The notes under the pieces: generated by a model | Told to the model about the DNA's origin: nothing | The model's database searches: none | The model's input: the letters and a program-made list of their open reading frames with translations, nothing else | In this document: one piece after another, positions 15,995 through 39,893 of the stretch | How positions within the stretch are numbered: the stretch's first letter is position 1 | Layout: each line of letters starts with the position of its first letter | NCBI GenBank assembly: GCA_947453335.1 | Contig: CANGFP010000003.1 | Span: forward strand, 224,704-288,703 | Direction of reading: 5' to 3' | Length of the DNA stretch: 64,000 nucleotides | Source of the DNA: Opitutia bacterium | Lineage (GTDB): Bacteria; Verrucomicrobiota; Verrucomicrobiia; Opitutales; UBA953 | Program-made: the position numbers and the translations under genes

Positions 15995-16020
15995 AAGGTG
16001 AACGGATTTTCACCTTTTTT
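15995..16020 (+). terminator. Rho-independent terminator after rny
   Basis: The eight-base stem AAGGTGAA/TTCACCTT (15995-16002 with 16009-16016) runs into a TTTTTT tract. It lies 26 bases past the rny stop. Confidence 0.75.
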
Positions 16021-16048
16021 CGGCCGCCGGGGACTTTCTTATTGTTAA

Positions 16049-16211
16049 CTCGGAACCGTTGTTTTATCCACAATGGTTCCGAGACACCTGTCTCGGCCAC
16101 CAACCGGACCTCCCCTCCTTCCACCGAAGCGCCGGGGACGTCCCGGAGACCCGGCCTTTCCGCCACGACGGCGGAAACGGCCTTCACCAGGCGACCGAAC
16201 ATCCGGTCGCC
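16049..16211 (+). promoter_or_regulatory. Highly structured leader RNA candidate upstream of the RGG-rich gene
   Basis: Five hairpins follow one another in the 206 bases before the ATG at 16227. (A) 16049-16062 with 16070-16083: 14 pairs including one G-U, 7-base loop. (B) 16079-16086 with 16089-16096: shares 16079-16083 with A, so the two exclude each other. (C) 16132-16136 with 16142-16146. (D) 16153-16164 with 16170-16182: 12 pairs with one bulged base. (E) 16190-16197 with 16204-16211: 8 pairs, 15 bases before the start. The G-U pair favours an RNA function over a DNA operator. It matches no riboswitch class I can recognise. Confidence 0.5.
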
Positions 16212-16226
16212 ACACCAAGAGAAACC

Positions 16227-17120
16227 ATGAGCCAAGAAACCCCCGGGTCGGACGACACGTCCGCCCACCCCGCCCCCGTGGCGGAAACGCACACGACCCC
16301 CGCCACCCCGGCGCCGCGCATCACCGAATCCAAGCTGGAGTCCGCCCATGCGGAACTTCCTCCCCTTTCCGTGATCGGCGCCTCCAGCGAGCCCGCCGCC
16401 AAGCCCGGCACCATCGTCGCCCCGAAGCAGTTCGGCCGCCGCGGCGTGCCCCAGAACGTCGCCCCCGGCGGCAAGGCCGACGGCGCCCGTCCTTCGATCG
16501 GCGTGGTCGCCAACCCCAGCGAAGTGACCGAGAACATCTCGGGCGAACTCGCCAAGCAGCCCGGCGCCCACCAGCCCCGCGAGCGTCGCGAACCCCGTGA
16601 ACGCCGCGAGCCGCGTGAACCGCGCGCCGACGGCGCCGCGTCCGAGGAAGGCCGCCAGCCCGGCATCCCGGGCGACCGCCCCCGTCGCGAACCCCGCGAG
16701 CCTCGCCCCGAAGGCGCCGGCCCGCGCCGCGAACCGCGCGAACCCCGCGCCGACGGCGACCGCCCGCGTCGCGAGGACCGTCCCCGCCGCGAGGAGCGCC
16801 CGCGCATCCAGATCGAGCCCGTCGTCATCCCCGTCCAGGAGCCGATCGGCTTCTGGGCCACGCTGAAACGCAAGCTCGCGACCTTGTTCGGCATCCCGAC
16901 CAAGGCCGTCTTCGTGCCTTCCGCCGGCGGCGAGCAGCCGCGTGGCGAACATCGCGGCGACCGCGGCGGCTTCCGCGGCGAACACCGCGGTGAACATCGC
17001 GGCGGCGACCGTGGTGGTCGCGGCCGTGGCGACCGCGGTGGCCGTGGTCGCGGAGACCGTGGCGGCCGCGGCGGAGACCGCGGTGGCCGTGGCGACCGCC
17101 GAGGCCCTCGCGAAGGCTGA
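16227..17120 (+). CDS. Arginine/RGG-rich disordered protein, putative RNA-binding
   Basis: 297 residues with no recognised enzyme domain. Residues 1-117 are Pro/Ala/Ser/Thr-rich. Residues 118-192 are dense in REPRE/RRE-type repeats. Residues 206-232 are the only hydrophobic/basic segment (GFWATLKRKLATLFGIPTKA), a possible amphipathic helix. Residues 239-297 are RGG, GDR and GEHR repeats. RGG repeats are known to bind RNA and promote condensate formation; a similar role here is inference. It follows a heavily structured leader and precedes a very strong terminator. Frame and composition support real coding despite low complexity: a clean ATG and stop, and no shift through the repeats. Confidence 0.7.
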   Translation: MSQETPGSDDTSAHPAPVAETHTTPATPAPRITESKLESAHAELPPLSVIGASSEPAAKPGTIVAPKQFGRRGVPQNVAPGGKADGARPSIGVVANPSEVTENISGELAKQPGAHQPRERREPRERREPREPRADGAASEEGRQPGIPGDRPRREPREPRPEGAGPRREPREPRADGDRPRREDRPRREERPRIQIEPVVIPVQEPIGFWATLKRKLATLFGIPTKAVFVPSAGGEQPRGEHRGDRGGFRGEHRGEHRGGDRGGRGRGDRGGRGRGDRGGRGGDRGGRGDRRGPREG

Positions 17121-17127
17121 ACGAAAC

Positions 17128-17157
17128 GGGGGCGCCACCAGGCGCCCCCGCTCTTTT
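17128..17157 (+). terminator. Very stable Rho-independent terminator before murA
   Basis: GGGGGCGCC (17128-17136), loop ACCA and GGCGCCCCC (17141-17149) are followed by GCTCTTTT. It ends the RGG-rich gene transcript. The murA ATG is at 17165, so the T-rich tract ends only about eight bases before the next start codon. Confidence 0.88.
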
Positions 17158-39712: not shown

Positions 39713-39893
39713 CGGCGGGACTTTAGGGCTGAGGGTAATGATGGCAAACGCCCATGAAGACTTATTCACAGCGGCCGCTGCGGGGTGGCGTCGGCTAATG
39801 GCAAAACCATCTTCCGCTAATACCCCCACCCCACCACGGTGGACGGTTGCGGGGGCGTCCCTCCACCTCGAAATACCACCCACTCTTTCCTCC

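Follow-up and report, generated by a model that had tools for sequence, protein, structure and literature searches.

Organization of the locus

The window, which is the whole 64,000-nucleotide stretch of the Opitutia bacterium contig that was analyzed, contains a structured leader located between rny (RNase Y) and a gene on the forward strand, whose features are listed in Table 1. The translation of this gene bears out the first-pass annotation in that its product is a 297-residue protein rich in RGG and RE, and searches against Pfam and NCBIfam returned no matches for it. Among the 55 genomes of the genus, 52 were found to carry the gene, with none of the 22 good-quality ones lacking it, and the family has more distant homologues in further genera. 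The protein is of low complexity apart from conserved short motifs (LESAHAELPPLSVIGA, PKQFGRRG, and the amphipathic-looking PIGFWASLKRKLATLFG). As the RGG gene adjoins rny here, we also note that its product is a conceivable partner of RNase Y.

Table 1. Features of the leader and its surroundings (positions within the window).
Feature	Position	Strand	Description
rny-end terminator-like hairpin	15997-16020	+	GGTGAA-CGGATT-TTCACC + T6; sequence read
Predicted -35 (TTGTTA)	16042-16047	+	In conserved block GACTTTCTT(A/G)TTGTTAA
Stem A	16049-16083	+	14-bp inverted repeat over spacer, -10 and predicted start; from the fold
Predicted -10 (TATCCA; TATTCA in relatives)	16065-16070	+	17 nt from -35
Hairpin B	16079-16096	+	7 bp, tetraloop ACCT; at the 5' terminus of the predicted transcript; kept in relatives, with compensatory changes
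Stem C	16104-16146	+	Three tiers: outer CCGG/CCGG, middle CCCC/GGGG, tip CTTC/GAAG
Hairpin D	16153-16182	+	12 pairs; pentaloop 16165-16169, ACGAC here
Hairpin E	16190-16211	+	8 bp; ends 15 nt before ATG
Unpaired A/C-rich stretch	16212-16226	+	Before ATG; no strong Shine-Dalgarno; open in relatives too
RGG/RE-rich low-complexity protein gene	16227-17120	+	297 aa; conserved motifs LESAHAELPPLSVIGA, PKQFGRRG, IEPVVIPxQxPIGFW
Intrinsic-terminator-like hairpin	17127-17157	+	3' of the RGG gene; terminator scan

The terminator-like hairpin at the end of rny, which a simple terminator scan did not list, is present in the subclade of the window and missing from the larger subclade, so read-through from rny into the leader is possible in the latter, and would place hairpin B inside a longer RNA. 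In this larger subclade (L013-L020 and similar loci) the -35 block directly follows the rny stop codon.

Four hairpins are conserved upstream of the RGG gene

The 206-nt stretch at 16021-16226 folds with an energy of -94.7 kcal/mol (z -7.6), and none of 200 dinucleotide shuffles was equally stable. The z value was -4.0 for the opposite strand, and -6.9 for 16076-16226, the portion that follows the predicted start. The first-pass annotation had described five hairpins (A to E) between the rny terminator and the ATG at 16227, and all five were found by reading the sequence, with the end of hairpin E at 16211, 15 bases 5' of the ATG, also as described. The five are real, though they do not form one unit, as A is a different thing from B-E. 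Hairpin C is likewise present, not as a simple hairpin but as a three-tier stem, a layout retained in most relatives.

To follow this structure among relatives, 44 distinct leaders from a single Opitutales genus of freshwater bacteria were extracted and aligned. In these leaders the B-E layout is found ahead of the orthologous RGG-protein gene, with the first hairpin differing in three of them, and when folded singly nearly all start with a 5' hairpin and a tiered stem, followed by a hairpin whose loop has five bases and by a final hairpin ahead of the start codon. All 44 are unusually stable on the sense strand (z about -2.6 or lower), with a mean z of -4.42 compared to -2.36 for the antisense strand, the sense value being the lower one in 41 leaders. 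An antisense RNA was discarded on these grounds, and also because A-C mismatches did not exceed those of column shuffles.

In the model-based alignment the covariation score reached 0.293, compared to 0.131 ± 0.008 after shuffling and with no slid control above 0.155, and both sides of a pair had changed in 182 cells versus 70.7 in shuffles; these values come from a covariance alignment that was fitted to the structure and leans towards it, and the shuffle-based significance, which ignores relatedness, is exaggerated by the use of 44 related sequences. For the pairs of D and E, changes on both sides were also detected in a sequence-only MAFFT alignment. A real, conserved structured leader with strong compensatory change is thus supported for B-E, stem A excepted. 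From the comparison of sequences we conclude that B-E (16079-16211) is a genuine conserved RNA with a single main fold.

Two of the hairpins show further regularities. Hairpin B starts 6-8 nt past the -10 in 40 of the 44 leaders while its paired sequences vary (CCGAGAC/GTCTCGG, CTAAGAC/GTCTTAG, CCGGGAG/CTCCCGG, CCAAAAC/GTTTTGG). The search picked another hairpin in its place in L061, L064, L067 and L073, the last of which also carries the standard hairpin B (CTAAGAT/ATCTTAG). The pentaloop of hairpin D is exactly ACAAC in 32 of the 44 leaders, with variants (ACTAC, ACGAC, ACTCC and others) in the remaining 12, and it is closed by an invariant CC/GG, while the stem below shows changes in both of its strands. 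As a conserved loop on a covarying stem is the usual sign of a protein site, we regard hairpin D as a candidate for such a site.

A promoter-like motif lies upstream of hairpin B

A promoter-like motif, TTGTTA-N17-TATCCA (16042-16070), is located ahead of hairpin B and conserved in relatives, such that nearly every genome presents TTGTTA, a spacer of 16-17 nt and TATTCA upstream of the RGG gene. Of the 55 genus genomes, 48 contain the pattern TTGTTA-N14..20-TTATNCACA, in nearly every case as a single site at this locus; the control gave zero matches. The spacing and conservation of the motif, together with the position of hairpin B, suggest that 16042-16070 is a -35/-10 promoter with a predicted start near 16077. 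Since a scan for canonical sigma-70 hexamers found none at this site, both the promoter and the start are treated here as predicted.

The start codon lies in an open region

The region comprising the ATG and the 14 bases before it showed an openness of 0.84, compared to 0.51 with shuffled leaders, and it was more open than the shuffled versions in all 44 leaders. Hairpin E had been proposed as a gate on ribosome entry; this is not supported, as the start region lies under no hairpin and is open in 44 of 44 leaders. An RNA thermometer was also rejected, as the unpaired values of the start region were 0.74, 0.77 and 0.84 at 10, 20 and 37 °C, respectively, and its openness fell below 0.5 in none of the 44 leaders in the temperature test. 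Two other candidates were discarded: the terminator scan gave no terminator-like site within 16079-16226 for an intrinsic attenuator, and inspection of the aligned leaders by eye gave no start codon conserved across them for a leader peptide. A motif resembling a Shine-Dalgarno sequence (SD) was detected in 5 of 28 rough gene calls of the window, most genes of which lack one; because SD-less starts are common in this genome, the weak or absent SD of the RGG gene is weak evidence.

The leader is restricted to one genus and one gene

Searches of the window against Rfam at gathering thresholds returned only a tRNA, and a relaxed search gave only sub-threshold matches (E >= 0.14); the leader matched no Rfam family in either search, in agreement with its earlier placement outside the known riboswitch classes. 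A covariance model of the leader was then used to search 223 genomes of the order. In 11 genomes of the genus it found one site each, ahead of the RGG gene, and nothing convincing came up away from this genus and gene. Extra matches in two genomes of other genera (G138 and G125) had E values of about 0.01 per genome, which is chance level among 223, and the one in G138 was not on the contig of its RGG homologue. For the RGG homologues of genera g2-g5 the model recognized no leader, the phage collection yielded no match, and the literature on structured-RNA discovery that was checked for Verrucomicrobiota leaders made no mention of it. A well-supported structured leader without an Rfam match is thus added from a little-studied phylum; the gene behind it encodes a conserved RGG-rich protein that falls outside every Pfam and NCBIfam model.

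In six loci with homologous RGG genes from other genera of this family (L095, L097, L099, L101, L102, L105) a short hairpin was seen by eye directly after a TTCACA-like or TATGCA element, for example CAGTTC-TTC-GAACTG in L102. The arrangement with a 5' hairpin may predate this genus.

Proposed role of the leader

Comparison among relatives establishes how the leader folds and that this fold is conserved, that its start site is open, and that it is restricted to the RGG gene. The reading that we favor, with moderate confidence, is that about 16076-16226 constitutes a structured 5'UTR of the RGG-protein mRNA that is ON by default, with a guard at its 5' end, an open start and a candidate site in hairpin D. 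Transcription would proceed from the predicted promoter (16042-16070) and the RNA would adopt one main fold, B-C-D-E. Hairpin B, at the predicted 5' terminus, would guard the mRNA against decay. The tandem hairpins would take up the GC-rich leader sequence so that the final ~15 nt 5' of the ATG stay unpaired, allowing 30S binding without a strong SD. The four hairpins are thus probably preserved to protect the message and to keep the ribosome site open. A protein bound at the putative site in the loop of D would most likely modulate the mRNA, the first candidate being the RGG product of the gene itself.

Stem-loops at the 5' end stabilize the ompA, recA and vacA mRNAs (PMC7509114), and the leader described here resembles this type in its hairpin at the predicted 5' end and its open start site. 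Unlike the ompA type, hairpin D has a conserved loop sequence beyond what stabilization needs. Another likeness is found in the 5'UTR of rne (RNase E), for which Diwa et al. 2000 reportedly described a conserved sensor stem-loop in a long 5'UTR and feedback by a protein of RNA metabolism. Here too a conserved stem-loop lies in a long 5'UTR, feedback by an RNA-metabolism protein is possible, and rny is found upstream; in contrast to rne, the gene behind the leader is not the nuclease, and no described Rfam family was matched.

Autoregulation by the RGG protein is plausible and a reasonable guess. If exerted on translation, the RGG protein would bind its own leader, either at the D pentaloop or along the array, and compete with the 30S subunit, a mechanism that we consider possible but rather unlikely. 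Competition of a protein with the 30S subunit at its own leader is known for bS1 on the rpsA mRNA and bL25 on the rplY mRNA, and the rpsA, rplM and rplY messages of E. coli (encoding bS1, uL13 and bL25) share a structured leader, of 157 nt and three hairpins in rplM, and a weak SD, and are read by their own proteins (PMC10931766). The leader described here is likewise structured, has a weak or non-canonical SD, is conserved among relatives, as those are in related families, and precedes a gene for a protein of the RNA-binding type. No relation in sequence to the rpsA, rplM and rplY leaders was found, as judged from the lack of Rfam matches, and those genes encode ribosomal proteins with demonstrated repression, while the product here is a low-complexity RGG protein whose regulatory role is putative.

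As expected of an autogenous leader, this one is conserved and confined to its gene, the RGG tail of the product is of the RNA-binding type, and hairpin D combines a conserved loop with a covarying stem. The weak or absent SD and the open start site also match what competition between repressor and 30S needs in rpsA and rplY (PMC10931766), but most genes of the window have SD-less starts, common in this genome, which makes this feature unspecific. The homologues of g2-g5, which lack a leader recognizable by the model, also speak against this mechanism. Moreover, the binding of RGG tails usually has little sequence specificity. That the leader is an autogenous operator, in which the RGG protein would read the CC-ACAAC-GG pentaloop hairpin plus the array and set its own level, is put forward only tentatively. 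If true, rpsA-like feedback would extend to a non-ribosomal protein in Verrucomicrobiota, and a bacterial RGG protein that reads its own leader would have a defined RNA target.

Alternative readings of the locus

A different kind of control would act on the promoter. The predicted -10 lies inside a perfect DnaA-box-like 9-mer, TTATCCACA (16064-16072), one of two in the window, where 0.08 were expected (the other at 39762-39770; TTATCCACA, TTATTCACA). DnaA or a similar protein could therefore control the promoter through the conserved TTATTCACA 9-mer, which equals the DnaA-box consensus, with the hairpins merely stabilizing the mRNA. The 9-mer is kept at a fixed spacing of 16-17 nt from the TTGTTA hexamer, and in two relatives it also stands at the head of an intergenic cluster of near-matches. 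However, the -10 element by itself could explain the conserved core, a single box is a weak target for DnaA, and the region has diverged in three genomes (L021, L028, L066), so we judge this control unlikely. The clusters in those two relatives (L173 and L180) comprise three or four near-matches and lie upstream of membrane-protein-like genes. In the genome of the window TTATTCACA accounts for 8 of the 9 TTATNCACA sites. A replication origin at this site was also considered and set aside: the GC skew of the window falls after 16 kb, but without a clean single switch.

The first-pass annotation had proposed instead that stems A and B are alternative folds turning expression on or off. Stem A indeed has 14 pairs including one G-U (CTCGGAACCGTTGT / ACAATGGTTCCGAG), it is far stronger than chance in this genome (z -8.1), its right arm overlaps stem B (CCGAGAC-ACCT-GTCTCGG) at 16079-16083, and computation on an RNA starting at or before 16049 showed stem A formed and stem B weakened. 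However, stem A is specific to this genome apart from a partial form in its closest relative L002, whereas stem B is conserved; an A-like stem with z < -2 was detected in 3 of the 44 leaders (-8.1 in the window, -2.4 in L002, -2.8 in L014). Its left arm coincides with the spacer of the promoter-like motif and its loop contains most of the -10. As stem A straddles this motif, a transcript from that promoter would lose its left arm, which lies upstream of the predicted start, and for 5' ends at or after 16060 the pairing probability is 0 for stem A and ~1 for stem B. Neither stem touches the start site, and in place of the two conserved alternative folds of a riboswitch we found the single main fold of B-E. 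Being unconserved, and with no predicted pairing in RNAs that begin at 16060 or later, stem A leaves the switch unsupported, and we consider it very improbable. A striking palindrome of a single genome can thus mislead when it lies over a promoter.

Finally, that the hairpins are a functionless by-product of base composition is hardly credible: the leader region is GC-rich, hairpins form easily in a GC-rich genome and individual stems are weak in some relatives, but dinucleotide shuffles and covariation take account of composition, and the z-scores, the covariation in excess of shuffled and slid controls, the fixed position of hairpin B and the conserved loop of hairpin D all contradict it.

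With regard to the origin of stem A, its left arm (16049-16062) shows four clustered differences from the L002 sequence (CTAGAGGCCGTTGT), all of which create Watson-Crick pairs with the right arm, itself largely common to relatives. The pattern appears to reflect a template-switch (quasipalindrome) correction and not selection for the hairpin.
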